IMG/VR virus record: IMGVR_UViG_3300042455_000580
Location: 1-42,917 of that record
Source of the DNA: a virus
Reading direction: 5' to 3' (one strand)
Length of the DNA: 42,917 nt
In this document: piece after piece, positions 11,328 to 40,448 of the stretch
Layout of the letters: each line of letters begins with the position of its first letter
Numbering within the stretch: position 1 is the first letter of the stretch
Position numbers and translations under genes: made by a program
Notes under the pieces: generated by a model
Database searches by the model: none
What the model saw: the letters and a program-made list of their open reading frames with translations, nothing else
Told to the model about the DNA's origin: nothing

Positions 11328-13517
11328 ATGGCAAAGCAATTAAAAGATTTATTGGGAGAATTTCAATTTAATAATTCTAACTTTGACCCAAATAAAGTTA
11401 AAGCTGATATGCTATCTTCCAAAGAAGTAGGACCAACAACTGGTAATATAAACATCCCCGCTATTGGTTTAAACGTTGAAGGTGTAAAATTACCATATGA
11501 TAGGCAATATCAAAAATTAGCAGAAAACGTTATTGAAATATATGGTGTAGATTCTGCTAGAATTTTAACTCGTGGTGCAGTAGAACCAATGCAATTGGCA
11601 AAACGTGGAGTAGATAGACTTTCAAGAGGTTTATTGGCTGGTACATTTGGTAATAATACTTTGGTTGGTGGTTTTGTAAGAAACGCTTTAAATTCATTTA
11701 CAAATCCACAATTTCCAAGTGATGAGGTAAATGATTTACCTTTCCTAGGTCTATCTACAAAAAATGGTTTATATACTAGTTTATATAATGGTGGCGTAAA
11801 TAACAACAAAAATGCAATAGGAAATCTATTAACATCATTTGCAACACCAAAACAAATTTCACAAAATATAGGTTCACCTGGTCAGGGTGGTAGAGTTAGG
11901 ATAGGTGGCGCGGCGATTGATTTGGCATTAAATGTTGGATTTTCTGCTTTACAGGGTATTGGTAAAAAATTTGGATTAAGTTCTAAAAGAGGTGGTGGGA
12001 ATGGTTCTTTACGTGAAATAAAAAATCCATTAAATAGTAAAGATAATGATTTACCAATATATCCATCCGATTACGCAACAAAAAGTTTTGGAAAAAGTAA
12101 TGGAACATTAACGGGTATTGCAACTGGTGAAGACCAATTGATGCGAGAAGGAGAGCGTTTTTATACAAAATATGAAGGTATAAATGCAGAAAAACAACTT
12201 AATACAATCAGATTAGATGGTAAAAAATATACATCATTAAAACCTGCTTTATCAAACTTTATAGGTTCATCCGGATTTAAAGGGTATATTACATACGATG
12301 AAGGAGCCAAAGATAACATACAAGGAATTAAATATAAATTTATTGATGTTGAAGGTTTAACAAAAGAAGATTTAAAAGAAGTTTCATTTTCAAAAAATGT
12401 TTATAAAGAACAGGGAAAAGGTGAAAGTACTTTATATAATGGCAAAAATGCAATTAATACAAAATTATTCGTAGGTGTAAAACGTCAAAAATCTGGAGCT
12501 AATATAACTCCAAGCGGTGCTACACCCGGTGGTGATTTGGAAGAAGTGGATGTACTAAATTCAAAAAGACACACATCATTATCATCTTTGACACTTGATG
12601 GAAATACAAAAAAAAATTCAGATTTAATATCAATATATTTAAAAGATGTTAATAGTAAAGACTATATAATGTTAATGTCAAATCTAACTGGTTTAACTGA
12701 TACACCCACACCAACTTGGGGAGATGTTAAACCGATTGGTTCTCCAAACAAATTTTATTTTTATGAATCATTTGAAAGGGAAATATCATTTAAAGGTCAA
12801 TTGTATGCAAAAAATGAAAAACAATTAGTTCAACTTTGGCAAAAAGTAGAATTTTTACAAAATCTTACATTGGCTAGTTGGGGAGGTACTAATGGTATTC
12901 AGGGGAAAATATGTGAATTAAAAATAGGAAACTTTGTTGATTCATCCTATGGATTTTTAACAAATTGTACAATAACAATACCTGATAATTCACCTTGGGA
13001 AATACAAGAAAATTCACAAGTCCCATTTATATGTGAATTTGATATTACATATAAAGTTATACCAAGTGCTATGAGTGGGTTTAATGAAATGTTTAAATCA
13101 AATGAACCAATTTATGACTATAATCAACCATCATTACCAGGATTAAATTTTGGCAAAAAATTACAACCTGGAAATACGGATATTAAAAAGTTACAAGGAC
13201 TTGGACCATTTTTTGGAAAACAAGGTTCTGACGAAGCCGGTATGGAAGGAACTATAAACCAAAATTCATTTACCGGTGGTGAAACATCAACGAGCGAAGT
13301 ACCAAATATATTAGACCCGGAAAAATGGCAAACCGAAGGTTCGGGTGAAGCACCAAATGGTAGTGGTATATTTAACACAATTGGCACAGATACTACGGAC
13401 GAATTAATACCAACTTCTGAAAGAGGACGTGATTTAAATAGTAGTAATGAATTTAAAATAAATCCAACAAGTACACCAAAATCATCAACTGGAATGTTAG
13501 GTGGAGCACCACAATAA
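11328..13517 (+). CDS. Baseplate/tail tube junction structural protein (putative)
   Basis: A 729-residue protein. The N-terminal half is Gly/Asn-rich. Residues about 435-590 form a compact domain with the pattern F-Y-F-Y-E-S-F-E-R-E-I-S-F-K-G-Q-L, then W-Q-K-V-E-F-L, W-G-G-T-N-G-I-Q-G-K, then S-Y-G-F-L-T-N-C-T-I-T-I. This looks like the beta-barrel domain of phage baseplate or tube-initiation proteins. The C-terminal about 140 residues are low-complexity and Pro/Gly/Thr-rich. It lies between the tape measure and a LysM-like wedge gene, the usual baseplate location. A role like T4 gp48/gp54 is my inference; a specific family is not proven. Confidence 0.62.
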   Translation: MAKQLKDLLGEFQFNNSNFDPNKVKADMLSSKEVGPTTGNINIPAIGLNVEGVKLPYDRQYQKLAENVIEIYGVDSARILTRGAVEPMQLAKRGVDRLSRGLLAGTFGNNTLVGGFVRNALNSFTNPQFPSDEVNDLPFLGLSTKNGLYTSLYNGGVNNNKNAIGNLLTSFATPKQISQNIGSPGQGGRVRIGGAAIDLALNVGFSALQGIGKKFGLSSKRGGGNGSLREIKNPLNSKDNDLPIYPSDYATKSFGKSNGTLTGIATGEDQLMREGERFYTKYEGINAEKQLNTIRLDGKKYTSLKPALSNFIGSSGFKGYITYDEGAKDNIQGIKYKFIDVEGLTKEDLKEVSFSKNVYKEQGKGESTLYNGKNAINTKLFVGVKRQKSGANITPSGATPGGDLEEVDVLNSKRHTSLSSLTLDGNTKKNSDLISIYLKDVNSKDYIMLMSNLTGLTDTPTPTWGDVKPIGSPNKFYFYESFEREISFKGQLYAKNEKQLVQLWQKVEFLQNLTLASWGGTNGIQGKICELKIGNFVDSSYGFLTNCTITIPDNSPWEIQENSQVPFICEFDITYKVIPSAMSGFNEMFKSNEPIYDYNQPSLPGLNFGKKLQPGNTDIKKLQGLGPFFGKQGSDEAGMEGTINQNSFTGGETSTSEVPNILDPEKWQTEGSGEAPNGSGIFNTIGTDTTDELIPTSERGRDLNSSNEFKINPTSTPKSSTGMLGGAPQ

Positions 13518-13812: not shown

Positions 13813-15942
13813 ATGAATCATTTTCCATTATTTGAACCTTTACCATCCTCTAAAACGGCTGCAATATCAGGTACATCTGCTTATTTTAAGCAAACGTTCT
13901 CTGGTGCAATGCCGTTTGTTAGGTTTATATCTTATCAAAAGGGTTCATTTGTTATAGGAAACGATTCAGATTATACATCATTTGTACCAGGACAAATGGG
14001 TTGGAGATTTCCACCAATGGTGGTTGGGCTTGAAGTAAAACCCGGTGGTAGTATGGGTGTATTGCGTGAGGGGCATATAACTATTAAATTCCCATCAATG
14101 GGAGCTATGGAATATCATAGCGAATTTTTTCGAATTGGTACTCCAAAGGCAATTAGATGGGGCTGGACAAAGAAAAGAAGTAGTGGTGCAGATTATTCAG
14201 TACCACAGGGATTAGATGCTCCAACCGCTAAAACATTGGTAGATAATATAGATACGTGGGAAAAATTTTGTGGAGATGGTACGGAAGATGTAATGGTAGG
14301 ACCACTTATTGATTTTAGTTATACCATAAATAATGATGCAAGTGTCGATGCTACATTTGTAGTTGGTACAAAAAATGAAATACCTGCTTATTTGGGTACT
14401 AATAGACAGGATAAAAAAAATACTAACTCATCAACCAAAGATTCGGTAGCAGACAATCGTTTGGCACGTGTATTAGAATTAGAAAATGGTCAATTTTTAG
14501 GATTAAAAAATGATATAGCAAAAAAGCATACTATAAATTATAATTTTTCAAATCAAGGATTCTTTTCTGCATTATTATCTAGAATTGGTACTCTTTTTAA
14601 TCCAGTAATAGAATATGACCACGATGCATATAGTGATGATGTGTTTATTAGTATGGAATTTTTAGTAGATTATACTATAAACAAAGGAAAAGGAAAGCAA
14701 CAAAATGATTATAAGTTAGATATATCAAATGCAGTAGCAGCTGCCCATCCAAATATAATAAGTAATTCTGAAAATGTTATTTTTCCAAACGCAACAATGG
14801 CAAATCCAATAGTTGCACAGAATGTTGATGGCGCTACTTTGGTTTTGGATACTAAAAATACTCAAAATTTAAAATTACAATCTGGTAAAGAATTTCCAGA
14901 ACAAATTGCAAGTAAAGGTATTTTAAAAATTTACAATGGAGATAGAAATAATTATGAAAAAGGAAAATGGGGGTATATAAAAAATATATTTTTAAAGGTT
15001 GATTTTGTATTAGATGTTGCAAAAAGTATGGGTGAAAATGGTAAAATGGGTGATTTTATACAAAAATTATGCGATGAAATAAATGTTGCAGGAGCCGGAT
15101 TAATGGAACTAGCACCACAAGTTCAATCGGATAGTAATGGTACTATGATTTATACAATTGTTGATTATGCATTAATACCATCGGTGGTAGCTATGCCATC
15201 AACTATACATTTATTTAACGATAATACTACCATAACAAACATAAATTTTTCAGCAGATTTACCAAAGGAAATTATTGCAATGGCTATGCTTGGTAATCAA
15301 AAATCAAAAGAAATTGGAAAAAATTTATTTTTTAAATTTCAACAAGACCCAACGGATATATTAAATTTAAAATCATATATACCTGATGCATCATTTGCAA
15401 ACACAGGTGGATTTATTCCTGGAACTGGATTTGGTAATATTCCTGGTATAAATGTAAATGTCCCTACACAATTTCCAATGTCGGATGGAACTACTCCAAG
15501 AACACCAGCAGCTGCGGCTGGAGGCGCTGCAGCCGGAGGAACACCTCCTGCGGGAAACATTATTACTGGATTTAATACAGCAGGACCAATTACACCCACA
15601 AATACTTTAATTGATGATAATTGTATTGTAATTCATTCAGATGATGATATAATGACAAACGGGTCACCAACAAAAGATGTTAGTGCTATATTAAAAGATA
15701 CCGCATTGTGTAAAAATTTATACTTTGGCAATAGTGGATTAAATAAAAATAACCCATTATTACCAATTGAATTGGAATTAACAGTATTAGGTATATCCGG
15801 AATTACTGTTGGAAAAGTTGTAAATATAGATAGAGTACCATTTGATAAAAGTGGAGTATTTCAAGTAACGGAAGTAACACATAAAGTTTCTGATACTTGG
15901 GAAACAACGATTAAATTCAGATATAGACCTACTAACGTTTAA
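13813..15942 (+). CDS. Baseplate hub protein (gp27/gpD-like, putative)
   Basis: A 709-residue protein. The N-terminal 190 residues contain beta-rich segments with the phrase P-L-I-D-F-S-Y-T-I-N-N-D. The C-terminal about 80 residues (L-P-I-E-L-E-L-T-V-L-G-I-S-G-I-T-V-G-K-V-V, then V-F-Q-V-T-E-V-T-H-K-V, then W-E-T-T-I-K-F-R-Y-R-P) match the end of baseplate hub proteins of the gp27/gpD type. In these, the domain caps the tube and binds the spike. A Pro/Gly/Ala-rich linker lies at about residues 535-590. No lysozyme or spike domain is visible. The hub call rests on the C-terminal pattern and gene order. Confidence 0.68.
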   Translation: MNHFPLFEPLPSSKTAAISGTSAYFKQTFSGAMPFVRFISYQKGSFVIGNDSDYTSFVPGQMGWRFPPMVVGLEVKPGGSMGVLREGHITIKFPSMGAMEYHSEFFRIGTPKAIRWGWTKKRSSGADYSVPQGLDAPTAKTLVDNIDTWEKFCGDGTEDVMVGPLIDFSYTINNDASVDATFVVGTKNEIPAYLGTNRQDKKNTNSSTKDSVADNRLARVLELENGQFLGLKNDIAKKHTINYNFSNQGFFSALLSRIGTLFNPVIEYDHDAYSDDVFISMEFLVDYTINKGKGKQQNDYKLDISNAVAAAHPNIISNSENVIFPNATMANPIVAQNVDGATLVLDTKNTQNLKLQSGKEFPEQIASKGILKIYNGDRNNYEKGKWGYIKNIFLKVDFVLDVAKSMGENGKMGDFIQKLCDEINVAGAGLMELAPQVQSDSNGTMIYTIVDYALIPSVVAMPSTIHLFNDNTTITNINFSADLPKEIIAMAMLGNQKSKEIGKNLFFKFQQDPTDILNLKSYIPDASFANTGGFIPGTGFGNIPGINVNVPTQFPMSDGTTPRTPAAAAGGAAAGGTPPAGNIITGFNTAGPITPTNTLIDDNCIVIHSDDDIMTNGSPTKDVSAILKDTALCKNLYFGNSGLNKNNPLLPIELELTVLGISGITVGKVVNIDRVPFDKSGVFQVTEVTHKVSDTWETTIKFRYRPTNV

Positions 15943-16303: not shown

Positions 16304-16325
16304 TTTGGATATACCAAATCTTTTT
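16303..16325 (+). terminator. Hairpin with T run ending the tail operon
   Basis: ATTTGG (16303-16308) pairs with CCAAAT (16314-16319) around an ATATA loop, followed by CTTTTT. The stem is short, and its left half is shared with the -33 element of the next promoter. Confidence 0.6.
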
Positions 16326-16335
16326 GTTATATTTG
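16305..16335 (+). promoter_or_regulatory. Host-type promoter of the DNA polymerase gene
   Basis: TTG at 16305-16307, a 20-bp spacer and TATATTTG at 16328-16335 match the Bacteroidetes consensus. The ATG starts only 4 bp after the -7 element, so the transcript may be leaderless. Confidence 0.8.
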
Positions 16336-16339: not shown

Positions 16340-17683
16340 ATGGTTATATACATAGAGGATTCTAAATCGTTTAATGATTTCTTATTGGAGTTTAATACTC
16401 GTCCAAGTAGAATATACATTCAACTTTCGGATGTGGACAAGCATGCTCTAAACAATCGTATATCATTTATTGTAGTTTGCTGTATGCAAAAATTCTATGT
16501 AATCAATCTAAACCACACCGATGGTTTGAGTTTAAGAGAAGATGCGTTAAAACTATTAGAAGAATCGCCACGAAGTAAAGCACTAATAAATGGTAAGAGT
16601 GTGGGACATTTGATTGGATTAAAACAATCGGTTGACATAGATTTATACAGATTCATTACAGATGTAAAAAACGAAGAAGAACCATTTAGAGAAATACAAT
16701 CATTCTACAAACGAAGTACACCACTACAATATCAAAACAACTTAAACGATAGTATTCCATTATCAAAGCAAGTTGGTATAATAAAAAACATATTACAATA
16801 TGAATTAGAAGATGGAGTTGGTGAATCTGTATTTAATTTTGTAAAAGATGCAACCAAAGTATTCCAATGGATAGAAAAATCAGGCATATTTGTAGATGAA
16901 AAATTAAGAGATTTACTACCACAAAAACATATCAATAAAGATGGGTTAGTATTCACCGAATACAACCTCCATACTTCCACACTACGTCCATCAAATAGAC
17001 ATGGTGGGATAAACTACTCGGCTATACCAAAAAAGAGTGATATGCGTAAAGCATTCGTTAGTAGATTCAAAGATGGTAAGTTAGTGAGTATAGATTATTC
17101 GGCATATCACCCACATTTACTTATTGATTTAATAAAAACACAAATTGGAACTAAAGAATGGATGAGTAAATTCAATTCTCAATTAGATTTTTATGATTGG
17201 GTTGCTGCTATATGTGGTGTAGCTGATTTGGATGGTGCAAGAGATGGGGCTAAACAATTAGTATTCCAATCCATATATGGTGGTGTAAGTTCTGAAATGC
17301 AAGAGTTACCATTTTTTAATGAGGTAAATTTATTAGCATTAAAATACAAAGCAGATTTAGATAGATATGGGTTCGTAATGACTCCGCACTATAACATACA
17401 AATCAAAAAGGAAAAGTTTGGTGAAGATAATCCACCACCGGCAAAAGTATTAAACTATGTAATTCAAGCATATGAAACGGAACGAAACATTCAAATCCTA
17501 AAACAAATAAAAGAAAAGTATAAAGGATTGGGAAAACTGATAATGTATAACTATGATGCATTTGTTTTTGATGTTCCTAATTACGAAATTACATATTTAT
17601 ATGAACAGATATATGAAAAAATAATAGACTCAAAAGAGTTTCCAGCAACAATAGTAACGGGTGAAAATTATGATTTTAGATAA
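16340..17683 (+). CDS. Family A DNA polymerase, short form
   Basis: A 447-residue protein with the polymerase A palm and fingers motifs. Motif A is S-I-D-Y-S-A-Y-H-P-H-L with Asp252. Motif B is R301-x3-K305-x7-Y313-G314. Motif C is N-Y-D-A-F with Asp406 in place of the usual H-D-E. The phrase S-T-L-R-P-S-N-R-H-G-G-I-N-Y-S-A-I-P-K upstream of motif A is also typical of family A. The N-terminal 150 residues are too short for a standard 3'-5' exonuclease, and I see no clear D-x-E motif. It probably acts as the replicative polymerase with the SSB, UvsX and helicase encoded downstream. T4 itself uses family B. The next gene overlaps it by 14 bp. Confidence 0.85.
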   Translation: MVIYIEDSKSFNDFLLEFNTRPSRIYIQLSDVDKHALNNRISFIVVCCMQKFYVINLNHTDGLSLREDALKLLEESPRSKALINGKSVGHLIGLKQSVDIDLYRFITDVKNEEEPFREIQSFYKRSTPLQYQNNLNDSIPLSKQVGIIKNILQYELEDGVGESVFNFVKDATKVFQWIEKSGIFVDEKLRDLLPQKHINKDGLVFTEYNLHTSTLRPSNRHGGINYSAIPKKSDMRKAFVSRFKDGKLVSIDYSAYHPHLLIDLIKTQIGTKEWMSKFNSQLDFYDWVAAICGVADLDGARDGAKQLVFQSIYGGVSSEMQELPFFNEVNLLALKYKADLDRYGFVMTPHYNIQIKKEKFGEDNPPPAKVLNYVIQAYETERNIQILKQIKEKYKGLGKLIMYNYDAFVFDVPNYEITYLYEQIYEKIIDSKEFPATIVTGENYDFR

Positions 17684-19262
17684 TTTAGATGAGATTTATC
17701 AAGAAGTTTTAGAAGAACTTTCTTATAGAGTAGGTATAGTAAATTTACGAAATAAAAATCACGTAGATATTTTAAGTGAAATATTAGATACTACCGAACT
17801 TGCGGAGTACAAATCCGATATTTTGGGTGAGTTGTATAAAAATGTAATAGCTGAACTTGATTTTCCAGATAAAGATGCACTTGCTGATTATAAATCTCAA
17901 CACAAAATGCGTTCAGATACACCCGTAACAATTGCGGGTAAGGAAACAACGGTAGGTGCAGTAAGTGATACATCTAAAGAAAAACAAAATAAACAAAAAG
18001 AAGATTCTAAAAATTCTCAAAAACAACCACCTAAAAGCGATAATTTAAAAAAATTCTCAAAACCAATGGTTGTGGATAGAACTAATAGATTAGTAAAACT
18101 TGCCGAAAAAGTTAAAAATAGCGATAAAGATACACAAAAAAGAGCAGCAATTCTTATTAAAAATTGGAATAAATTTATGAATGCTACAACTGAAAAAGAA
18201 AAAGTTGAAGCAATGCGTGAAATGGCTGAATATAATCTAATACAAGGACACGCTGGTGGTAAAAAAGTATATGTTAGTAATTCATTGCCGGTAGATGAAA
18301 AATATCTTACAGGTGATAGTGGGGATGAAATAACCAAAGAGATGAATAGGGTTATGAAAGAAAATGATATTTACATTCCAATGCGTGGTTCTACTCTAGA
18401 TAGACAAAAAGCTGATTTAAGTGGAAAACATAACGAAGCTGGTGTAGTTGCTGAATTAGATGCATCAAATGAAAATATAAAAAATAGAGATGAAGTTGCA
18501 AAAAAATATTCAGAAGTAGGTGGAGATGTAAAAAAATCAGATGAAGATAATAAAAAAGCTGCAAATGCTGTAAAAGAAAGTATATTACAAAATTTTCCAA
18601 ATTCAAAAATTATAAAAGCAACTCAAGTTGGTGGTAGAGGTTCAACTGCTTTAAATAAACTTGGTATAGACCCAAAAACAGACCCAACTGATATAATGGT
18701 TGAAATACAAACGGAATCTGGAGAAACTGTATTTGTAAAATATTCTCTTAAAGTTTACGATGACCCAAGAAATATAACCATGAAAAATTCGGGTGTAAAT
18801 AACGCCGGTGAAGTATATCTTGGTGGAGATGCGGGAAATCAAATTGATACATTTAAGCGTGAATTGGATAAAAAGTATAGTTGGACAAACGAAATGAGTT
18901 CAGCTGAACAAAATAAAAATAAAACAGCATACAGACAAGAGTATTTGAAAAAATATGCAGAAGAATTGGAAAAAATATCAAAAACACCAGAGGGACAATC
19001 TCAATTATTAAAAATGTGGCAATCGGTACATGGGTGTGGTAAAGGTGTAAGTACATTGATTACAAACAAAAGAACAGGTGAATCTGTGGTACACTCGCCA
19101 GAATACTATTGTAACCCAAAACAACCATTTAAAATAGAATATGATGGGGTAAAAATTGTTGTAAATATGAGTGGTAAAGATGATTCTACATATCTACAAT
19201 TAGACTTGAAAACTGAAAAGAATAATTCTAAAAAATTATTATTCAGACATAGAATAAAATAG
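17670..19262 (+). CDS. Unknown charged protein, possible nuclease-like fold
   Basis: A 530-residue protein. I chose the ATG at 17670 over the GTG at 17661 because GGTGA lies at a fitting distance. The N-terminal 60 residues are acidic. A Lys/Gln/Ser-rich linker spans about residues 95-130, then a long helical charged region. Around residue 345 it reads D-P-T-D-I-M-V-E-I-Q, and 10 residues later K-Y-S-L-K. This resembles the PD-(D/E)XK nuclease pattern, with Ser in place of the second acidic residue; that is only a hint. The C-terminal part has two Cys (C-G-K-G and Y-Y-C-N-P). It overlaps the polymerase gene, so a role in DNA metabolism or as a virion-packaged protein is possible. Confidence 0.6.
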   Translation: MILDNLDEIYQEVLEELSYRVGIVNLRNKNHVDILSEILDTTELAEYKSDILGELYKNVIAELDFPDKDALADYKSQHKMRSDTPVTIAGKETTVGAVSDTSKEKQNKQKEDSKNSQKQPPKSDNLKKFSKPMVVDRTNRLVKLAEKVKNSDKDTQKRAAILIKNWNKFMNATTEKEKVEAMREMAEYNLIQGHAGGKKVYVSNSLPVDEKYLTGDSGDEITKEMNRVMKENDIYIPMRGSTLDRQKADLSGKHNEAGVVAELDASNENIKNRDEVAKKYSEVGGDVKKSDEDNKKAANAVKESILQNFPNSKIIKATQVGGRGSTALNKLGIDPKTDPTDIMVEIQTESGETVFVKYSLKVYDDPRNITMKNSGVNNAGEVYLGGDAGNQIDTFKRELDKKYSWTNEMSSAEQNKNKTAYRQEYLKKYAEELEKISKTPEGQSQLLKMWQSVHGCGKGVSTLITNKRTGESVVHSPEYYCNPKQPFKIEYDGVKIVVNMSGKDDSTYLQLDLKTEKNNSKKLLFRHRIK

Positions 19263-19270: not shown

Positions 19271-19308
19271 CCATTTTCTTATACTTATAAGGAGTATAAA
19301 ATGAAGAT

Positions 19309-19722
19309 ATGATAAAGACGCAGTTACTATGTACGTTCTCAACAAAAAAAGATATTGAGAATAATTTGGATTTTATAAAAAAAAGTTATAAATTAGCATA
19401 TAATTACATTTATGTTTTACAAAATAAAAACGTCCCTAACGATTTGTTTGTAACTTATAATGTGGTGGTGGAAGGACAACATCCAGAAAGCGAGTTAAAG
19501 ACTATTTTAGTACATAGAAAAAAACAAACTAATACCTTATATACAATCAACGCTCTAAACCAATTAATAATGGAAAAGACGGGTGGTATGTTGGATGAAA
19601 AGTATGAGGTAGATTGGGAAGAGTACAGAAATTGTATATTACTTACAAATGCAGAAGGAGTTAGAAAAATAACAACAAGAGTATTTGATGTGATTGAGAT
19701 TGAAGGATTGCAAATTAATTAA
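19309..19722 (+). CDS. Conserved phage protein of unknown function
   Basis: A 137-residue alpha/beta protein without recognisable motifs; its length and composition look like a real soluble protein. The start is unusual. The good ribosome binding site TAAGGAG (19288-19294) is placed for an ATG at 19301 that encodes only three codons (M-K-I-stop). The stop of that mini-ORF overlaps the ATG at 19309. Translation probably depends on termination-reinitiation, or the true frame is disturbed by an indel. The next gene starts 13 bp after its stop. Confidence 0.65.
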   Translation: MIKTQLLCTFSTKKDIENNLDFIKKSYKLAYNYIYVLQNKNVPNDLFVTYNVVVEGQHPESELKTILVHRKKQTNTLYTINALNQLIMEKTGGMLDEKYEVDWEEYRNCILLTNAEGVRKITTRVFDVIEIEGLQIN

Positions 19723-19735
19723 AACCAAAATAAAT

Positions 19736-20095
19736 ATGTTACAGAACGATTACACAGACCCACAAATAGTGGCTCAAGCGGAAAAAGATTATCCAGAAAC
19801 TACTGCGGAATACAAACGCATTATGGTAGAACAATACGAACTATTCTGCCGAAAACAATCAAACTATGGACCAGGTAACATTTCAGTAGGAACTGAATGT
19901 AGAACTGATGCAGATATTAAACTATCTCTTACTGGATTATGGTTTCGTATCAACGATAAAATCAACCGCTTAAAACAAATGATTATTATTGGTGCACAAG
20001 ATAATGTAGGCGAATCACTTACGGATACATATCAGGACTTATCAGTCTATGGAATCATAGCACAAATCGTACAAAACAAAAAATGGGGTAAATAA
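19736..20095 (+). CDS. DUF1599 protein (nucleotide modification associated domain 1)
   Basis: A 119-residue protein from the ATG at 19736; a longer reading would overlap the previous gene. The motifs F-C-R-K-Q-S-N-Y-G-P-G-N-I-S, G-L-W-F-R-I-N-D-K-I-N-R-L-K, and E-S-L-T-D-T-Y-Q-D-L-S-V-Y-G-I-I-A match the DUF1599 family, named nucleotide modification associated domain 1 because of its gene neighbourhoods in phages. Its biochemistry is not established. The stop overlaps the start of the halogenase (TAATG), so the two are translationally coupled. Confidence 0.82.
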   Translation: MLQNDYTDPQIVAQAEKDYPETTAEYKRIMVEQYELFCRKQSNYGPGNISVGTECRTDADIKLSLTGLWFRINDKINRLKQMIIIGAQDNVGESLTDTYQDLSVYGIIAQIVQNKKWGK

Positions 20096-21630
20096 TGGAA
20101 ATAGTAATAGCTGGTGGTGGAACTGCAGGATGGTTGACTGCTTTATATGCACAACACATATGTCCAAAAGATAATATAACACTTATAGAAAGCGAAGATA
20201 TTGGTATATTGGGCGCGGGAGAAGGTTCTACCCCACAACTACCTTGGATATTATTTGCATTGGGCATTAGTGAAAATGAGCTTATAAAGTATGCAAACGC
20301 AACTTTAAAAATGGGTATTAGTTTTGAAAATTGGAGGGGTGATGGTAAAAAGTATATGCATAGTTTTGGAATTTCCGATTCAAATTTAAGTCCTTATAAT
20401 TTTACAAAAACAAAAAATACATTAGTAAGTGGTTTACCCGATAATGGACAGCAATATGCGTATATAAATGCTATTGCGAATGGTGAAACGATGGATGATA
20501 TTAGTTTGGTTTCTAAACTTGCTTACAATAATAAATCACCATTTATCAATGAAAACGGAAAAGTAAGTTTTGTTTCAAATTATAGTTACCATTTTGATGC
20601 AAGTTTATTGGCTAAATTTTTAAGAATGAAAGCCGAAGAGCGTGGTGTAAAAAGAATTGAAGCCAAAATAACCGATATTATATCAAATGAAAATGGTGGA
20701 ATTGGTTCAATAAAATGTGGTGATGTTGAAATAAAATCAGATTTTGTTTTTGATTGTACCGGATTTGCAAGATTATTTATTGGAAAACATTTTGGTGTAG
20801 AATGGAAATCGCATCAGGATAAATTAAAAGTAAATACTGCTATACCATTCTTTTTACCAAAATCAGATACTCTACCACCATACACTAAAGCGGTAGCAAT
20901 GAAATATGGTTGGATGTGGCAAATACCTTTACAGAATAGATGGGGTTGTGGATATGTATTTGATGACAAATATATTAACGTAGAAGAAGCAAAGAAAGAG
21001 GTTGAAGAAATGGTAGGACAGGAAATAAAAATCAATAAAGTTATACCATTCGATGCTGGAAGATATGTTACATCTTGGGTTAAAAATTGTATAGCGGTTG
21101 GTTTAAGTTCAACATTTACCGAACCAATTGAAGCAACATCCATTTGGTTGATAATAACACAATTGAGAAATCTAACATCTGATAATATACATAATATAGA
21201 TGAAGATGAGATTGATGATTACAACAAACTAATAGGAGATACTTGCGAAACAATAATTGATTTTTTACAATTCCATTATATTACGGATAGAAATGATACT
21301 GATTTTTGGAGAGATTACCAAAAAAGAACCACATTAAGTCCAAAAATGAAAAGACGTTTAAATAGTTGGAAAAAAAGAACTGTAAACATTAATGATAGCG
21401 ATTTTTTATTTACTCAATTTGAAGAACATAGTTGGTTTGCAGTTGCATATGGTAATGGTGTAATTGATAAATCGGTGTATGAACGTGAAAATGAAGAATA
21501 CGATTTAGATAATAAATTAGGAAATTGGTTTATAAAATATGATAATGATATAAATTATGCAGAATCTCTAGCATATACACATGAAGAGTTAATTGAGTTA
21601 GTTAAATCAAATGATATTATCCTCAATTAA
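20095..21630 (+). CDS. Flavin-dependent (tryptophan-type) halogenase
   Basis: A 511-residue protein of the tryptophan halogenase family. The N-terminus has the FAD-binding G-G-G-T-A-G-W-L (residues 7-14) and G-E-G-S-T-P. Lys72, in A-T-L-K-M-G-I, aligns with catalytic Lys79 of PrnA. The family signature W-x-W-x-I-P is W273-M-W-Q-I-P278. Glu346 in E-P-I-E-A-T aligns with the catalytic Glu of PrnA. The active site therefore looks intact for HOCl-type chemistry with reduced FAD from a separate reductase. The region holding the tryptophan-binding aromatic residues in PrnA is shorter and different, so free tryptophan is probably not the substrate. A cyanophage halogenase (VirX1 of Syn10) with broad iodinating activity is a known precedent. 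It is cotranslated with a DUF1599 gene. Substrate unknown. Confidence 0.9.
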   Translation: MEIVIAGGGTAGWLTALYAQHICPKDNITLIESEDIGILGAGEGSTPQLPWILFALGISENELIKYANATLKMGISFENWRGDGKKYMHSFGISDSNLSPYNFTKTKNTLVSGLPDNGQQYAYINAIANGETMDDISLVSKLAYNNKSPFINENGKVSFVSNYSYHFDASLLAKFLRMKAEERGVKRIEAKITDIISNENGGIGSIKCGDVEIKSDFVFDCTGFARLFIGKHFGVEWKSHQDKLKVNTAIPFFLPKSDTLPPYTKAVAMKYGWMWQIPLQNRWGCGYVFDDKYINVEEAKKEVEEMVGQEIKINKVIPFDAGRYVTSWVKNCIAVGLSSTFTEPIEATSIWLIITQLRNLTSDNIHNIDEDEIDDYNKLIGDTCETIIDFLQFHYITDRNDTDFWRDYQKRTTLSPKMKRRLNSWKKRTVNINDSDFLFTQFEEHSWFAVAYGNGVIDKSVYERENEEYDLDNKLGNWFIKYDNDINYAESLAYTHEELIELVKSNDIILN

Positions 21631-21632
21631 AT

Positions 21633-21663
21633 TTGGAGATACGAAAAAATATTCGTATCTTTG
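21633..21663 (+). promoter_or_regulatory. Host-type promoter with inverted repeat, upstream of SSB gene
   Basis: TTG at 21633-21635, a 20-bp spacer and TATCTTTG at 21656-21663. The spacer holds a perfect 8-bp inverted repeat, GATACGAA (21638-21645) and TTCGTATC (21652-21659), overlapping the -7 box. This is a likely operator. Confidence 0.82.
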
Positions 21664-21685
21664 TTTCAACATTTTAAGAATCCGA

Positions 21686-21693
21686 TATTTATA
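21686..21693 (+). promoter_or_regulatory. TATTTATA motif in the SSB leader
   Basis: A late-type motif 68 bp upstream of the SSB start, downstream of the host-type promoter. It could keep SSB expressed late. Confidence 0.4.
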
Positions 21694-21697
21694 TGTG

Positions 21698-21720
21698 TAA
21701 GATTTATCGCGATAATCTTA
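21698..21720 (+). promoter_or_regulatory. Dyad-symmetric element in the SSB leader
   Basis: The 12-bp palindrome TTATCGCGATAA (21704-21715) is extended by TAAGA/TCTTA arms with one bulged T. It lies in the 5' leader of the gp32-like gene. In T4, gp32 represses its own translation at a leader structure, so this is a candidate autoregulatory site. Confidence 0.5.
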
Positions 21721-21761
21721 AAATCTAAAATAAATAAAACTTAAAAACAAAAACGTACATT

Positions 21762-22622
21762 ATGGACATTAGTGCAATCAAGCAGCGTCTCAATTCGTTG
21801 CAAAACACATCCAAAAAGACAGATGCTTTATGGAAACCAAAACCAGGAAAATATGTATTACGCATAGTTCCTTATAAGTTCAACAAACAAAATCCTTTTA
21901 TTGAACTTTTATTTCATTACAACATTAACAACAAAACTTATTTATCACCAGCTTCTTTTGGAAGACCTGACCCGATTTTAGAGTTTGCCGAAAAGTTAAA
22001 ACGATTAGGTGATACTGAAAATTGGAAAGCAGGTAAGAAGATGGAGCCGAAATTGCGTACATTCGCACCTGTGGTTATTCGTGGACAAGAAAGCGAAGGA
22101 GTTAAGTTTTGGGGATTTGGTAAAACTGTATATCAAGAGATTCTTGCAATCATTGCAGACCCTGATTATGGTGATATTACCGATGAGAACGAAGGTCGTG
22201 ATGTGGTAATCGAAATCGTAGAAGAAGCTGGTAAAACATATCCAGAGACTCGTATCAGAGTAAAACCAAATGTAACAAAACTAACTGAAAACCCAGAGTT
22301 AGAAAACAAATTACTAAATGAGCAGACGGAAATTACTGACATTTATAGTGAGTTATCTTACGCTGAATTGAAAGGTGTTTTAGAAAATTGGTTAAACCCA
22401 ACTGCACAACATGAGGATGAAGAATCACCTGCACCATCGGTTGCATCTGAAACATTAGCACCTAAACCACAATCGGTTCAGGAGCAAGTAGCACCTCAAC
22501 CTGTTTCAGTACCTAAATCAACAGAGCCAATTACAGAGTTACCTTGGGATGTAGCAGAAGAAAAACCTGCTTCTACAAAGGTTGATGTAGCATCGGCATT
22601 TGAAGATTTATTCAATTCATAA
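21762..22622 (+). CDS. Single-stranded DNA-binding protein (gp32-like)
   Basis: A 286-residue protein. The N-terminus (I-K-Q-R-L-N-S-L) resembles the cooperativity segment of gp32-type proteins. The core has the family phrases L-W-K-P-K-P-G-K-Y-V-L-R-I-V-P-Y and F-W-G-F-G-K-T-V-Y-Q-E-I. A Pro/Glu/Ala/Gln-rich linker (about 215-265) leads to an acidic, hydrophobic tip F-E-D-L-F, the usual protein-interaction tail of SSBs. T4 gp32 binds zinc; this protein has no cysteine at all, so the zinc site is missing. It lies 17 bp upstream of uvsX-like, with which it would work in recombination-dependent replication. Confidence 0.85.
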   Translation: MDISAIKQRLNSLQNTSKKTDALWKPKPGKYVLRIVPYKFNKQNPFIELLFHYNINNKTYLSPASFGRPDPILEFAEKLKRLGDTENWKAGKKMEPKLRTFAPVVIRGQESEGVKFWGFGKTVYQEILAIIADPDYGDITDENEGRDVVIEIVEEAGKTYPETRIRVKPNVTKLTENPELENKLLNEQTEITDIYSELSYAELKGVLENWLNPTAQHEDEESPAPSVASETLAPKPQSVQEQVAPQPVSVPKSTEPITELPWDVAEEKPASTKVDVASAFEDLFNS

Positions 22623-22639
22623 AATAAAAAGGAGTTATA

Positions 22640-23767
22640 ATGGCAAAAGTTCAAGCAGATTTAGCACAACAAATTGCCGATAATCTAAATAAGAAATACA
22701 AAGACCAAAAGGTTGCTTTCTTTTTAGATGATGACTCGGAGGATGCACCCACCAATATAACGGGGTGGGTGTCCTCTGGGGCAACTATGTTGGATGTTGC
22801 AGTTTCCAATAGACCATTTGGAGGTTTTCCAATTGGTAGAATTACGGAAATTACGGGATTAGAGCAGAGTGGTAAATCATTACTATCAGCACACGTGTTA
22901 GCGGAAACGCAAAAGCAAGGTGGTGTTGCAGTGTTGATTGATACCGAAACTGCGGTAAGTAGAGAGTTCTTTGATGCGATTGGTGTAGATGTATCTAAAC
23001 TATTATATATTACGGCAGATACCGTAGAGGATATATTTGAAACAATTGATACAATCATTGAGCAAGTAAGAAAAGGTGATAAAGATAAGTTAGTAACTAT
23101 CGTAGTTGATTCAGTAGCAGCAGCATCTACAAAGAGAGAGCTGGAAGCTGATTACGATAAGGATGGATACGCAACTGATAAGGCAATCATTATTTCAAAG
23201 GCAATGCGTAAAATCACAAATGTGATTGGTAGACAAAAGATTACATTAGTATTCACAAACCAATTACGCCAAAAGATGAACGCAATGGCATTTTCAGACC
23301 CTTGGACTACATCGGGTGGTAAAGCAATTGCTTTCCACGCTTCGGTTCGGTTGCGATTAGCATCAACCGGTAAAATCAAAGCAAAGGATGAAAAAGGTAA
23401 TGAGAGAATTGTTGGTATCAAAGTAAGAGCCAACGTTATTAAGAATAGATTAGGACCACCATTACGTTCAGCAGATTTTGATATTTTCTTTGATAGAGGT
23501 ATTGACAACTATGGAGCATGGTTGGGAGCAATGAAAGATTATAACTTTGTTAAGCAAGGTGGAGCGTGGTACACATATGTTGATACTGAAACTGGTGAAG
23601 AATTTAAGTTCCAAGCCAAAGAGTTACAAGAAATATTGGAAAACAACCCATCTGTAAAAGAACAAATCTATAAACGAATTTGTGAATTTACTATTCTACA
23701 ATACAAAAAGGATTCATTAGATACTGATAATCTGGTAGTAGATGCGAGTGTATTAAGTGATGAATAA
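22640..23767 (+). CDS. uvsX: UvsX/RecA-like recombinase
   Basis: A 375-residue RecA-fold ATPase. Walker A is G-L-E-Q-S-G-K-S (residues 73-80). V-A-V-L-I-D-T-E-T-A follows, Walker B is L-V-T-I-V-V-D-S-V-A, and the loop region has F-T-N-Q-L-R-Q-K with T-T-S-G-G-K-A-I-A-F-H-A-S-V-R. These are the standard recombinase motifs. T4-like UvsX catalyses strand invasion on gp32-coated DNA. The start has GGAG five bases before ATG. Codons 34-46 encode an unusually GC-rich hairpin (see the entry at 22739). Confidence 0.92.
   Translation: MAKVQADLAQQIADNLNKKYKDQKVAFFLDDDSEDAPTNITGWVSSGATMLDVAVSNRPFGGFPIGRITEITGLEQSGKSLLSAHVLAETQKQGGVAVLIDTETAVSREFFDAIGVDVSKLLYITADTVEDIFETIDTIIEQVRKGDKDKLVTIVVDSVAAASTKRELEADYDKDGYATDKAIIISKAMRKITNVIGRQKITLVFTNQLRQKMNAMAFSDPWTTSGGKAIAFHASVRLRLASTGKIKAKDEKGNERIVGIKVRANVIKNRLGPPLRSADFDIFFDRGIDNYGAWLGAMKDYNFVKQGGAWYTYVDTETGEEFKFQAKELQEILENNPSVKEQIYKRICEFTILQYKKDSLDTDNLVVDASVLSDE
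22739..22776 (+). other. Strong GC-rich hairpin inside the uvsX coding sequence
   Basis: GAGGA-TG-CACCCACC (22739-22753) pairs with GGTGGGTG-TCCTC (22764-22776), a 13-bp stem with a 2-base bulge and a 10-base loop. It stands out in an AT-rich genome and could slow ribosomes or bind a regulator. Confidence 0.6.
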
Positions 23768-30401: not shown

Positions 30402-31166
30402 ATGAAAGTAGAAGGTAAGGAGTATTGTAATACATCCAAACTCATAGTTAGACCTGTGAACAAATCCGTTGCAAAGGATATTATTGTAAATAACCATTAT
30501 AGTGGTATATGGACAAAGGTATCCTATGCATTGGGTTTGTTTTATCAATCAGAGGATGAGCATCAATTTTTTAGTGGAGTAAATGAAAAGCTAATAGGTG
30601 TAGCTTGTTATGGTGACCCTATTGGTAGAAATACCGGAGCATCTATTTCCGATATGTTGGATAGAGATACAGTATTAGAATTGACTCGTTTATTTGTATT
30701 TGATGGATATGGTTCTAATATAGAGAGTTGGTTTGTAGCACAAACATTTCAATGGTTACGAGATAATACACCAAAGATTAGAGCACTAATTTCATATTCA
30801 GACCCAAAGGTTGGACACAAAGGAACTATTTACCAAGCTACTAATTGGATTTATCAAGGTAACAAAATTAGGTGGAGTGATAGTTGGAGTTTTAAGTGGA
30901 GTGAAATAGATGAGTGGCAACATGGTAGAACTATATTTCCATATTATGGTACTAATGACCCAAAGAAAATACAAACAATGGTAACATCGCCATTTTGGAT
31001 TAAACGAGAACCGCAAAAACATCGTTATGTGTATTTCCTAACTAAAGATAAAAAGGTTAGAAAGCAATTAATTAAATCCTTAAAGCATGAAACTTTCCCA
31101 TATCCAAAAGAAAGTGAAGAGCATGTTGATGAAATATATAAATTAGAACCAATTGAAAGAAGCTAA
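30402..31166 (+). CDS. Mom-like GNAT-family DNA modification protein, copy 1
   Basis: A 254-residue protein resembling the phage Mu Mom family, a GNAT-fold group that modifies adenine in DNA. Visible blocks are H-Y-S-G-I-W (about 31-36), L-I-G-V-A-C-Y-G-D-P-I-G, L-E-L-T-R-L-F-V-F-D-G-Y-G-S-N-I-E-S, a downstream I-S-Y-S-D, and G-T-I-Y-Q-A-T-N-W-I-Y-Q-G. Mom proteins use an acetyl-CoA-type fold to add a carbamoylmethyl group that protects DNA from restriction. A paralogue overlaps its 3' end. The promoter lies immediately upstream. The function is inferred from family pattern; the exact modification is unknown. Confidence 0.75.
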   Translation: MKVEGKEYCNTSKLIVRPVNKSVAKDIIVNNHYSGIWTKVSYALGLFYQSEDEHQFFSGVNEKLIGVACYGDPIGRNTGASISDMLDRDTVLELTRLFVFDGYGSNIESWFVAQTFQWLRDNTPKIRALISYSDPKVGHKGTIYQATNWIYQGNKIRWSDSWSFKWSEIDEWQHGRTIFPYYGTNDPKKIQTMVTSPFWIKREPQKHRYVYFLTKDKKVRKQLIKSLKHETFPYPKESEEHVDEIYKLEPIERS

Positions 31167-31956
31167 CAAAAATTATTGTGATACAACCAAAGTATCCGTT
31201 AGGGAGATTAGTACATCTATTGCAAAAGAAATTATTGTAAAGAAACACTATACTCACGCTTGGACTGCTTGTAGATATTCGTTGGGTATATTCTATAAAA
31301 CGGATACTGAAAATGCTTTGGGTGATGCAGAAAAACTGATAGGTTGTTTAATCTATGGGTTTCCAGTTGGAGCTAAAGCACCTACATCTGTATGCGATGG
31401 TTTGACTAAAGATAATATTTTAGAATTGACTCGTTTATATTGCGATGATGGGTATGGTTCTAACATTGAGAGTTTTGCTTTAGGGCAATCTTTTAAGTGG
31501 TTGAAGGAAAATGATAAGGCAATCAAAGTTTTGCTCTCATACGCTGATAATGGACAGGAACATTTGGGTGGAATATACCAAGCAACCAATTGGATTTATC
31601 AAGGATTAAATACTGATATTGCACTAATGCCAAATTATGGTATCTCAATCCAAAAAGACCCATACAAATGGATACATAGTAGAAGTGTATTTACTAAATG
31701 GGGAAGTGGTAATTTGGAACATCTTCGTAGAGAAATTGGTAAAGATGGATATACTGAATTTTGGAGAAGAGAAGAACCACCAAAACATAGATACATTCAG
31801 TTGATACCACAAGATAAACGTGAGAAGAAAGATTTGATGAAACGATTAAAACATCCAATCAGAGAGTATCCAAAAAATGCAAGAGAGTATAATAAGGGAA
31901 TTGAACACCATACTACAATAGAACCAAGTACGGAAATAGCTAAAAACTTTTGGTAA
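31153..31956 (+). CDS. Mom-like GNAT-family DNA modification protein, copy 2
   Basis: A 267-residue paralogue of the previous gene. It shares the N-terminal Y-C-D-T-T-K, A-K-E-I-I-V-K-K-H-Y, L-E-L-T-R-L-Y, D-G-Y-G-S-N-I-E-S and G-I-Y-Q-A-T-N-W-I-Y-Q-G blocks. The start is a TTG at 31153, the only usable codon after an in-frame TAG at 31144, giving a 14-bp overlap with copy 1 and suggesting coupled translation. Compared with copy 1 it has an insertion after the ATNWIYQG block and a longer C-terminus, so the pair has diverged. They may form a heterodimer or have different targets. Confidence 0.72.
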   Translation: MKEANKNYCDTTKVSVREISTSIAKEIIVKKHYTHAWTACRYSLGIFYKTDTENALGDAEKLIGCLIYGFPVGAKAPTSVCDGLTKDNILELTRLYCDDGYGSNIESFALGQSFKWLKENDKAIKVLLSYADNGQEHLGGIYQATNWIYQGLNTDIALMPNYGISIQKDPYKWIHSRSVFTKWGSGNLEHLRREIGKDGYTEFWRREEPPKHRYIQLIPQDKREKKDLMKRLKHPIREYPKNAREYNKGIEHHTTIEPSTEIAKNFW

Positions 31957-33119: not shown

Positions 33120-33827
33120 ATGGAAAAATTTCATAAATTAGACGAAGCATCATTAGCACGGGCATATCAACACGTGGTAGATAAAAAAGTTCCTAGTTGG
33201 GGAATGGCAAGTGCATATCGTTACGCCAATACACCTGCTGAAAATAAAAAATTAAATAAACAATTAGAAGCGGATTGCAGAAAAAGGGGTTTAGGGTTTT
33301 TTAAAGTAAGTGGACATTGGAGAGAGTGTCAAGATTCAGCCATACCATATGCAAAGTGCCCATCTGATAAATTGGTAGACGCAGTAGAAGAAACTTTGTT
33401 TATACCAGGTGCACCAAAAGAATTTATGGAACATATTGTAAAAAAGTATAACCAAGATTCTGTTATATATGGTGGTAAGGATACAAAAGGAAATGCACAT
33501 TTAATTTTTAGAGAAGGTGGTGAGGAAAACATAGGTAAGTTTCACCCAAATCAAATAGGCCAAGCGTACTCTAATTTTAGAGATAAAGAAAAAACGATGA
33601 TGTTTAAGACTGGAAAAAAAGCACAAAGTGGAACAAAAGCCGGTGCAGAAAAACAACAAGCCAATATTAAAAAATTATCATCTATGATACCGGTAGGTGC
33701 ATTAGATAAGAGAATAAAGAATCCAGAAACAGGTAGAAACATTAAAGTTAAAACTGCATTGGGTTACGATAAAACATCACCCGCATATAAGACGGCATTT
33801 GCAGCAATAAAAAAACCTAAAAAATAA
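33120..33827 (+). CDS. Unknown basic protein
   Basis: A 235-residue Lys-rich protein. The block N-K-K-L-N-K-Q-L-E-A-D-C-R-K-R-G-L-G-F-F-K-V-S-G-H-W resembles DUF3293-type proteins, but this is a weak match by eye. The C-terminal 80 residues are strongly basic (many Lys and Gln) and end in K-K-P-K-K, which suggests nucleic acid binding. The upstream motif is late-type, so it may be a packaged or late protein. Confidence 0.6.
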   Translation: MEKFHKLDEASLARAYQHVVDKKVPSWGMASAYRYANTPAENKKLNKQLEADCRKRGLGFFKVSGHWRECQDSAIPYAKCPSDKLVDAVEETLFIPGAPKEFMEHIVKKYNQDSVIYGGKDTKGNAHLIFREGGEENIGKFHPNQIGQAYSNFRDKEKTMMFKTGKKAQSGTKAGAEKQQANIKKLSSMIPVGALDKRIKNPETGRNIKVKTALGYDKTSPAYKTAFAAIKKPKK

Positions 33828-36254: not shown

Positions 36255-36857
36255 ATGATTAGTTACGAAGAAATTGGTTTTTTAAATCATAAAATTTACA
36301 AAATACCTATAAGTGGTATTGATAATAAAAAGGTTATTACTGAAGTCCAAATTGATAGGGATTTGTGGATGCCAGATAAGAGATTCAATGATACTCGTAT
36401 GAGAGCACCTGGTTTACAAATGGATGGCCAAACTCTATGTGGTGATGAGACACGTAATATGTTTTCATTGTGTTATAATAAAGTAAGAGATTTTTTTACG
36501 GAGTTAAATAATGAAAAGTATTTAAGTGGATACCAAAGAACTTGGATATACATAGCAGTACCCGAATTAAAGGAAGCACATTATCACAATCATTTAAAAT
36601 TTCATCCAGATTTCGATACATTTACAGATTGGACTTGGGTATATTATGTACAAGTTCCTAATAATTGTAAAGGACCAGAAGGTAAATTGTTTTTTAGAGA
36701 TGATAAAGACCATAGTATAACACATACATTTTTTCCAGAAGAAGGATACATCTATGCATTTGATGCAAATTTGGAACATCTACCATCTCTAGCACCTACA
36801 TCTACAAAAGAAAGAATAGTAGCAGCTGGAAATGTTATTTTAAATTTTGAAAATTAA
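36255..36857 (+). CDS. 2OG-Fe(II) oxygenase-like protein 1
   Basis: A 200-residue double-stranded beta-helix type protein. The likely iron-binding motif is the H109-Y-H111-N-H113 cluster, the distal His is His175 (L-E-H-L), and a 2OG-binding Arg is Arg187 (K-E-R-I). The strand G-K-L-F-F-R-D-D between them fits the fold. It is the first of three neighbouring genes with this pattern. A GGAG site lies 11 bp before the ATG. The substrate is unknown; protein, nucleic acid or small-molecule hydroxylation are all possible. Confidence 0.72.
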   Translation: MISYEEIGFLNHKIYKIPISGIDNKKVITEVQIDRDLWMPDKRFNDTRMRAPGLQMDGQTLCGDETRNMFSLCYNKVRDFFTELNNEKYLSGYQRTWIYIAVPELKEAHYHNHLKFHPDFDTFTDWTWVYYVQVPNNCKGPEGKLFFRDDKDHSITHTFFPEEGYIYAFDANLEHLPSLAPTSTKERIVAAGNVILNFEN

Positions 36858-36860: not shown

Positions 36861-37421
36861 ATGATTAAAGGGATTGAATGTCCATATATCATTTCCAAAC
36901 TATCGGAGCATGATTTAATAAAGGAAGATGTTTTAGATTTAATTAATGATGCTGAATCAAATCGTTATACATACGCAGAAGATTATACTGATATAACGAG
37001 AACTGATTGGAATATTAGTAGAGATATTGAAAGAGAATACACAAAAATTGCAATGCCTCCTATTGTGGCATTAATGCAAAACAGATTTTTAGAATTGGGT
37101 TATAATGAAATGAACATACATAATGTATGGTTTCAACAATACAAAAAAGGTTCAGAGCATGGTTGGCATGTTCACTTAAATTGCCAATTTACCAATGTTT
37201 ATTATTTAGATTTACCAGAAGGGGCCCCTAAAACGCAACTTTTAAATCCAATGAACCAAAAAGAGATTATAGAGTTAGATGTAAATGAAGGTGATGTTTT
37301 AACATTCCCAAGTTTCATTTTACATAGAGCACCAAATGTGGAAAGTAATATAGTAAAAACTATTATATCATTTAATTCAGATTGTAATATTAAATCAGTT
37401 GCTGGTTTATACGATTTTTAA
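36861..37421 (+). CDS. 2OG-Fe(II) oxygenase-like protein 2
   Basis: A 186-residue protein with H100-G-W-H103-V-H105 followed by strands (T-N-V-Y-Y-L-D-L), a distal His155 (F-I-L-H-R-A-P) after V-N-E-G-D-V-L-T-F-P-S, and Lys166 where many family members have Arg; prolyl hydroxylases also use Lys there. This matches the putative 2OG-Fe(II) oxygenase group common in marine phages. It starts 3 bp after the previous gene, forming a likely operon. Confidence 0.8.
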   Translation: MIKGIECPYIISKLSEHDLIKEDVLDLINDAESNRYTYAEDYTDITRTDWNISRDIEREYTKIAMPPIVALMQNRFLELGYNEMNIHNVWFQQYKKGSEHGWHVHLNCQFTNVYYLDLPEGAPKTQLLNPMNQKEIIELDVNEGDVLTFPSFILHRAPNVESNIVKTIISFNSDCNIKSVAGLYDF

Positions 37422-37451: not shown

Positions 37452-37988
37452 ATGCAAAGTATTGATATTTTTCCAATAAGAATATTTGAAAATTATATAG
37501 AAGTTCCAGATTCTTTAACCGATGGTATTAGGGAAGATATAAAAGATGATACCAAATACGATACTCCAATTGATTGGGATGGCGGTGTGTATTCATCTTT
37601 TAATTATGAAAGCAAACTATTATATGGTACTAAAGAGCATAATCAAATAATAGATAATGTTATAGAAATAGTTAAAACTACACCACCTTACAATGGATTT
37701 GGTGATAATTTTATTTATGAATATAATATGTGGTGGAATTATTATACGGCGGGAAAGTATCAAGAATACCATAGCCATGCTAACAATATACTTTCTGGAG
37801 TTTGGTATTTGAATGATTCAAATGCACATACCGTATTTTGTGATAGGGGTCTTAAACACAAAGTTTTACCAACGAAAGGTAAAATAGTTTTCTTCCCATC
37901 GTACCTACCACACTATGTAGAACCATCCGATGATGAAAGAATGACAGTAGCATTCAATTTTCAATTATCAAAGCGGAACGTAAAATAA
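37452..37988 (+). CDS. 2OG-Fe(II) oxygenase-like protein 3
   Basis: A 178-residue protein of the same group: Y-H107-S-H109-A-N-N then S-G-V-W-Y-L, F-F-P-S-Y-L-P-H154, and Arg163 (D-E-R-M-T-V-A-F-N). The pattern is the clearest of the three. It lies 30 bp after gene 2 and is the last protein gene before the RNA cluster. The three proteins share fold features but little sequence, so they are old paralogues or separate acquisitions. Confidence 0.82.
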   Translation: MQSIDIFPIRIFENYIEVPDSLTDGIREDIKDDTKYDTPIDWDGGVYSSFNYESKLLYGTKEHNQIIDNVIEIVKTTPPYNGFGDNFIYEYNMWWNYYTAGKYQEYHSHANNILSGVWYLNDSNAHTVFCDRGLKHKVLPTKGKIVFFPSYLPHYVEPSDDERMTVAFNFQLSKRNVK

Positions 37989-39698: not shown

Positions 39699-39772
39699 GC
39701 GAGATTGGTGTAATGGTAGCACATCGGCCGTCCAGGTCGGAGGAGGGGGTTCAATTCCTTTGTTTCGCTCCA
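39699..39772 (+). tRNA. tRNA-Gly (TCC), atypical anticodon loop
   Basis: GCGAGAT pairs with GTTTCGC. U73 and CCA are encoded, and T loop TTCAATT is present. The stem TCGGC/GTCGG leaves the loop CGTCCAG with TCC at 34-36. G1-C72, C2-G71, U73 and C35-C36 are glycine identity elements. Position 33 is G instead of U, so function is not certain. Confidence 0.72.
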
Positions 39773-39775
39773 TAA

Positions 39776-39848
39776 GCGGAGAAAGTGTTCCGGTAGCATG
39801 TGTACATTCCTGTACAATGAGGTGGTTCGATTCCATCTCTCCGCTCCA
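39776..39848 (+). tRNA. tRNA-Gly-like (TCC), short anticodon loop
   Basis: GCGGAGA pairs with TCTCCGC, U73-CCA is encoded, and the T arm GGTGG-TTCGATT-CCATC is good. The anticodon stem TGTAC/GTACA leaves a 6-base loop ATTCCT with TCC after U33. One base is missing compared with a normal 7-base loop. Confidence 0.62.
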
Positions 39849-39933
39849 AAATTTAAATTATAAAATAATAACCAATATTACTATTTTTAACTTAAAATAA
39901 AAAAAAGTTATATATATTAAAAGAAAAAAGAAA

Positions 39934-40077
39934 ATGAAAACTCTTAACCTACATACGATAGCTTATCAACCGACATCAAATTTGATGTGGGCAGGCAATC
40001 GCGTGTGTGATTTTAGTTCGAAAGGAATTAAAAATCAGTTAGGGGCAACAATATTAAACGATGTAGACTTGGGATAA
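39934..40077 (+). CDS. 47-residue ORF inside the RNA cluster
   Basis: An ATG ORF of 47 codons after an A-rich leader, followed 29 bp later by a strong terminator. The product has no recognised motif, and neither signal peptide nor membrane segment is evident. Its only support is position: the 84 bp upstream are A/T-rich and could hold a promoter, and the terminator closes the unit. It may be a real small protein or an untranslated RNA. Confidence 0.4.
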   Translation: MKTLNLHTIAYQPTSNLMWAGNRVCDFSSKGIKNQLGATILNDVDLG

Positions 40078-40106
40078 AACCAAACTACATACTTAAATTA
40101 AAACAA

Positions 40107-40136
40107 CCCCTGACTCAAAAAGTTAGGGGTTTTTTT
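40107..40136 (+). terminator. Intrinsic terminator within the RNA cluster
   Basis: CCCCTGACT (40107-40115) pairs with AGTTAGGGG (40121-40129), loop CAAAA, then seven T. It separates the first two downstream tRNAs and the small ORF from the twelve-tRNA run. Confidence 0.9.
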
Positions 40137-40150
40137 ATGTTTAAAAATAA

Positions 40151-40222: not shown

Positions 40223-40254
40223 CAAGAATAAGTTCTTTGACATAATGGTGAAAT

Positions 40255-40327: not shown

Positions 40328-40335
40328 CAATAGAT

Positions 40336-40409: not shown

Positions 40410-40448
40410 CAGGTAGTTCCCGATGCTACATATCAAAATCGGACTTGG

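Follow-up and report, generated by a model that had tools for sequence, protein, structure and literature searches.

The 511-aa ORF described here is a member of the flavin-dependent halogenase family and lies in a variable cargo slot of a phage genome. We consider it likely that it encodes a functional halogenase, carried by the phage as accessory cargo, whose target is probably an aromatic compound other than free tryptophan.

Family assignment, active site and predicted fold

The reading frame has no internal stop, as seen in an ORF check of the window (the whole 42,917-nt stretch of viral DNA that was analysed), and in a profile search residues 2-460 of its product matched the Pfam family Trp_halogenase (PF04820) at E 4.4e-113, with a score of 379 bits where the cut-off is 21. 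PHROG 2928 ('tryptophan halogenase') matched the ORF at E 1e-109, and the protein also matched 30 PDB sequences, which are named halogenases; a match of this kind is far beyond chance. An earlier note on this DNA had proposed a flavin-dependent halogenase with intact catalytic residues, and both the family searches and the alignment to PrnA (a reference sequence identical to PDB 2apg) bear this out. According to this alignment, Lys72 and Glu346 are indeed the equivalents of the PrnA catalytic pair (K79 = K72 and E346 = E346), and the WxWxIP motif, also said to be intact, is present as WMWQIP, with W273/W275/I277/P278 corresponding to PrnA W272/W274/I276/P277. The claim that the tryptophan pocket is not conserved is right only in part: the clamp that PrnA uses for free tryptophan (Y443, Y444, E450, F454 and W455) is absent, the phage protein having L438, F439, H445 and two gaps at these positions, whereas H101 and F103 of the PrnA pocket are kept as H89 and F91. 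At the halide site, PrnA Ser347 and Gly349 are replaced by Ala and Ser, the latter being also found in BrvH.

The structure prediction that had been proposed as a check agrees with this assignment. The AlphaFold2 model, obtained with 40 aligned sequences, has a pLDDT of 91.7 and a pTM of 0.91, and when its fold was compared with the PDB the 50 matches listed were all halogenases (TM by query length 0.80-0.87).

Conservation and selection

Conservation was analysed in an alignment of 165 rows: the window protein plus 164 halogenase ORFs, which were taken from the window and from the fetched viral loci without removing near-duplicates. At position 72, Lys is found in 162 of the 163 rows that have a letter there; at position 346, Glu is found in 156 of 165 rows and Gln in another 6. 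In a midpoint-rooted FastTree tree of 219 sequences, the window halogenase falls in a branch of 78 (support 0.996) formed by itself, 73 other viral sequences and 4 from genome contigs, which contains the halogenases of HTVC008M and DSL-LC01, and inside which none of VirX1, BrvH, Xcc4156 or the other reference enzymes of the tree was placed. Loss of the two catalytic residues in close homologues, which the earlier note had named as evidence against its proposal, was not observed: position 72 is K in 77 sequences of this branch and R in one, and position 346 is E in 76 and D in two. The usual halide motif of the branch is EPLEATS. A single phage locus can have up to four halogenase genes (L014, 704-3726 and 7992-11084; L081), and Gln replaces the catalytic Glu in some distant copies.

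Four halogenase copies from the phage group gave dN/dS values of 0.05-0.24, and the frame is open in the close copies fetched. These ratios indicate that the gene is under purifying selection and is maintained.

A variable cargo slot between Nmad1 and gp32

The gene lies, as had been noted, between a DUF1599 gene and a single-strand DNA-binding protein gene (Table 1), although the match of the former to DUF1599/Nmad1 is weak (23 bits against a cut-off of 25). The stop of the Nmad1-like gene overlaps the start of the halogenase (TAATG). The GC content of the halogenase is 0.30, like that of the p533 gene, against 0.36-0.37 for Nmad1, gp32 and UvsX. When relatives of the gp32 gene were fetched and their upstream genes compared, a halogenase between Nmad1 and gp32 was found only in the window's own group (L210, L212); L002-L009 likewise carry one at this place. 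In the syntenic locus L213, which is 96% identical to the window in p137, 98% in Nmad1, 88% in gp32 and 97% in UvsX, gp32 directly follows Nmad1 after a 129-bp gap and the halogenase ORF is cleanly missing, so that the sequences equivalent to 19300-20096 (93.9% identical) and 21630-22700 (88.3%) of the window adjoin directly. More distant relatives carry other cargo in the slot, namely a ResIII/DEAD helicase (L241), a methyltransferase (L237), a dCMP deaminase (L271) or a 2OG oxygenase (L216), and no PF04820 gene was found in 14 related records, two of them of 145 and 176 kb and most of them fragments. The Nmad1-gp32 interval is thus a variable cargo slot in which the halogenase is dispensable.

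Table 1. Features of the window related to the halogenase gene and its surroundings
Feature	Position	Strand	Basis or remark
Promoter-like element before polA	16304..16335	+	motif search
Conserved 137-aa gene (p137), upstream border of the variable region	19309..19722	+	no Pfam or PHROG family
Nmad1-like (DUF1599) gene	19694..20095	+	PF07659, 23 bits, below the Pfam cut-off of 25
Flavin-dependent halogenase P0001, 511 aa	20095..21630	+	PF04820 E 4.4e-113; AlphaFold pLDDT 91.7; dN/dS 0.05-0.24
Segment absent from syntenic L213, single-ORF gain or loss	20097..21629	+	flanks contiguous in L213
GxGxxG FAD-binding motif, residues 7-12 (GGGTAG)	20113..20130	+	sequence motif
Lys72 codon, equivalent of PrnA Lys79	20308..20310	+	PrnA alignment
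WxWxIP motif, residues 273-278 (WMWQIP)	20911..20928	+	PrnA alignment
Glu346 codon, equivalent of PrnA Glu346 (EPIEATS)	21130..21132	+	PrnA alignment
Bacteroidota-type promoter-like element TTTG-N20-TATCTTTG, between halogenase and gp32	21632..21663	+	motif search; also in L213
gp32-type single-strand DNA-binding protein, downstream slot border	21762..22622	+	PF08804 E 2e-14
2OG-Fe(II) oxygenase-like gene	36255-36857	+	family adjoining halogenases in relatives
2OG-Fe(II) oxygenase-like gene	36861-37421	+	family adjoining halogenases in relatives
2OG-Fe(II) oxygenase-like gene	37452-37988	+	family adjoining halogenases in relatives

Transcription, phage and host

Because a promoter-like element separates the halogenase from gp32, a transcription unit that would start before polA may end with the halogenase gene. 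Promoter motifs of the Bacteroidota type are enriched in the window (13 against 2.9 expected; 0 of 100 shuffles), which hints at, but does not prove, a Bacteroidota host. The window also contains genes for tail sheath and tube, gp32, UvsX, a DnaB-like helicase, ribonucleotide reductase and PhoH, a set that marks it as a fragment of a T4-like myovirus; its UvsX is at most 57.5% identical to that of any named phage (Microcystis phage Mel-JY01). A cyanophage was also considered and rejected: ten related records, fragments among them, contained no reaction-centre gene (PF00124), and the promoter motifs hint at a different host.

Several other features of this phage deserve mention. A GOLLD RNA (RF02032, 39278-39687, + strand, 292.6 bits, full model) lies between a tmRNA (RF00023, 38058-38446, + strand, 87.5 bits; ARAGORN tag ANVELSTMTFEDAMAWMNSFDYAVAA) and a tRNA array, with 13 tRNA-like genes after the tmRNA at 39699-41128, and around the tmRNA there are four promoter-like repeats that resemble one another (type TTTGGATATATGAAAAAAGTTTCGTATATTTG, at 38007, 38465, 38603 and 38748, + strand). 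An S-adenosylmethionine lyase family gene (33120-33827, + strand; PF23780, 43 bits) could have an anti-restriction function. Finally, three large genes of the + strand with no PHROG match (11328-13517, 13813-15942 and 17661-19262) are mostly 34-63% identical in relatives, while their neighbour genes are mostly more than 90% identical.

Neighbours of related halogenases and cofactor supply

Outside the phage group, the halogenases nearest to this one are those of L111 (51% identity) and of L028, L012, L011 and L013 (41-43%). Their genes follow a 2OG-Fe(II) oxygenase-like gene, which in turn comes after a member of a sulfotransferase-like family whose L111 copy matches PF03567 and PHROG 3347; the three genes are consecutive in L111, L012 and L028. 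These neighbours suggest a tailoring step on a small molecule, a glycan or a peptide. Across the loci, 42 of 76 locus groups have a 2OG oxygenase within 4 genes of the halogenase (odds ratio 3.5 when compared to farther genes), a count based on clusters chosen for their nearness and on related loci, and uncorrected for that relatedness. Placement over whole records gave a marginal result, oxygenase and halogenase being within 5 kb in 8 of 17 records against 4.4 expected (p 0.04). In the window the halogenase stands alone, with some 15 kb separating it from the three 2OG oxygenase genes. Three records of the window's phage group yielded no relative of the L111 sulfotransferase. A 247-aa gene of L014 was also considered as a sulfotransferase, a candidate to which the alignment gives no support.

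A small Trp-rich membrane protein (cluster 23) is encoded within 4 genes of viral halogenases in 23 locus groups and farther away in 5, and directly beside them in L124, L052, L127, L105 and others; its L052 copy has no Pfam or PHROG match. It could be a partner, but it is 4-12 genes off in the closest relatives and outside the window's gene cluster set, so that its position is perhaps plain synteny.

With regard to the cofactor, a flavin reductase of the PF01613 family, the only one covered by this search, was present in 13 of 14 control genomes but in none of the 22 records that bear a halogenase. The reduced flavin is therefore likely to come from the host, and a phage-borne reductase of this family was discarded.

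Proposed function and alternatives

In the explanation that we favour, host-supplied FADH2, O2 and a halide would yield hypohalous acid at the flavin, which would travel to Lys72, and Glu346 would help to position and activate the aromatic ring that receives the halogen. This ring could be the indole or phenol group of a small molecule made by host or phage, or it could belong to a peptide or glycan; the substrate is most likely an aromatic compound, though not free tryptophan, a class that we offer as a leaning rather than as a result. The gene would represent a single-ORF gain (or a loss elsewhere) in the variable slot that ends the polA-Nmad1 gene run, and would have no part in replication. 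What speaks against a functional halogenase is that the branch has no member of known activity or structure among the references compared, and that the halide site has Ala and Ser, although the Ser is shared with BrvH. The Ala and Ser, together with a weak match to the QhpG model (30 bits against a cut-off of 240), could instead point to a flavin enzyme with this fold whose reaction is hydroxylation or oxidation, as in QhpG, or to a decayed copy; with Lys72, Glu346 and WxWxIP intact, dN/dS well below 1 and open frames in the close copies, we regard this as very unlikely. Phage DNA, nucleotides or signals derived from nucleotides are an extremely improbable target of the enzyme. The DUF1599-like gene and gp32 adjoin the halogenase gene, which had led to the suggestion of a nucleic acid or nucleotide target, and the phage has two overlapping Mom-family DNA-modification genes (30402-31166 and 31153-31956, + strand, each about 147 bits to PF25680) and so may modify its own DNA. 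However, the neighbours in a swappable slot say little about the target, the DUF1599 match is below its cut-off, and this linkage to nucleotide-modification and replication genes is seen only within the window's phage group; related halogenases sit elsewhere, beside 2OG oxygenases, sulfotransferase-like or structural genes. We have therefore abandoned a nucleic acid target read from context, given the empty site of L213 and the unrelated cargo of other relatives. Nothing was found in favour of a quorum-type molecule, also suggested in the earlier note; in relatives, the genes that accompany the enzyme encode 2OG oxygenases and sulfotransferase-like proteins.

The accessory-cargo explanation can be narrowed further: the halogenase would act together with 2OG-Fe(II) oxygenases, and in relatives with sulfotransferases or glycosyltransferases, to decorate a virion fibre, a capsule glycan or a metabolite. 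The frequent nearness of oxygenases and the three-gene run of L111, L012 and L028 agree with it, as do the collagen-like genes and the glycosyltransferase beside the halogenase of DSL-LC01, a member of the same branch, the collagen-like tail fibre genes of the window and the cyanophage prediction of Iyer et al. 2021 (PMC7824862). However, the isolation of the window gene from its 2OG genes, the weakness of the placement test and the choice of oxygenase clusters by nearness make this version possible but unlikely. We consider it quite unlikely that halogenase, 2OG oxygenase and sulfotransferase form a widespread phage module that halogenates a virion protein or a host surface glycan, of which the window halogenase would be the movable single-gene cassette.

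Comparison with known systems

Knowledge of phage halogenases dates back to the first cyanophage genomes, and speculative roles have been proposed for them, namely antibiotic protection, the stabilisation of metabolites and the decoration of the capsule (PMC2984593, PMC10452541, PMC7824862). The present work adds a mostly viral branch of which no member has a characterised activity or structure among the reference enzymes compared, together with a pair of otherwise near-identical phage loci with and without the gene that makes the question of fitness testable, and the sulfotransferase-2OG oxygenase-halogenase run of the closest relatives narrows the search for the substrate.

The best match in a named phage is the 'tryptophan halogenase' of Pelagibacter phage HTVC008M (AGE60413.1; 40% identity over 87%), which belongs to the same branch but to a different phage, where it lies between a phytanoyl-CoA-dioxygenase-like gene and the terminase large subunit. 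VirX1 of cyanophage Syn10 (PDB 6qgm), a phage enzyme of the same family with the catalytic Lys and Glu, has been shown to be active with a preference for iodide (PMC8407142), and is thus a valid precedent for an active phage halogenase, as had been argued. However, it is only about 26% identical, falls outside the branch and has YPFG and ESTG where the window halogenase has HSFG and EATS.

PrnA, RebH and PyrH share with the phage protein the fold, the FAD motif, WxWxIP, Lys and Glu, PrnA differing in its free-tryptophan clamp. The phage protein has the features of the group C 'indole-type' halogenases, since Lys and Glu are kept, the motif is of the HxFG type and the PrnA-type clamp is missing. 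Among these, BrvH (6frl) and Xcc4156 (6y1w) are 28-30% identical to it, with a TM of 0.83-0.84, and HSFG is the motif given for Xcc-b100-4156 in the published group C table (PMC8269204); both enzymes are bacterial, however, lie outside the branch and lack the extra stretch that the phage protein has around residues 105-121. Several group C enzymes act on indole or larger substrates and not on free tryptophan (PMC8269204). Finally, the cluster of halogenase and 2OGFeDO genes for which Iyer et al. 2021 predicted a role in capsule decoration or secondary metabolism (PMC7824862) resembles the present case in joining a halogenase with 2OG oxygenases in phages, but that prediction concerns large cyanophages, whereas the window gene is alone and the run in its closest relatives adds a sulfotransferase-like gene.
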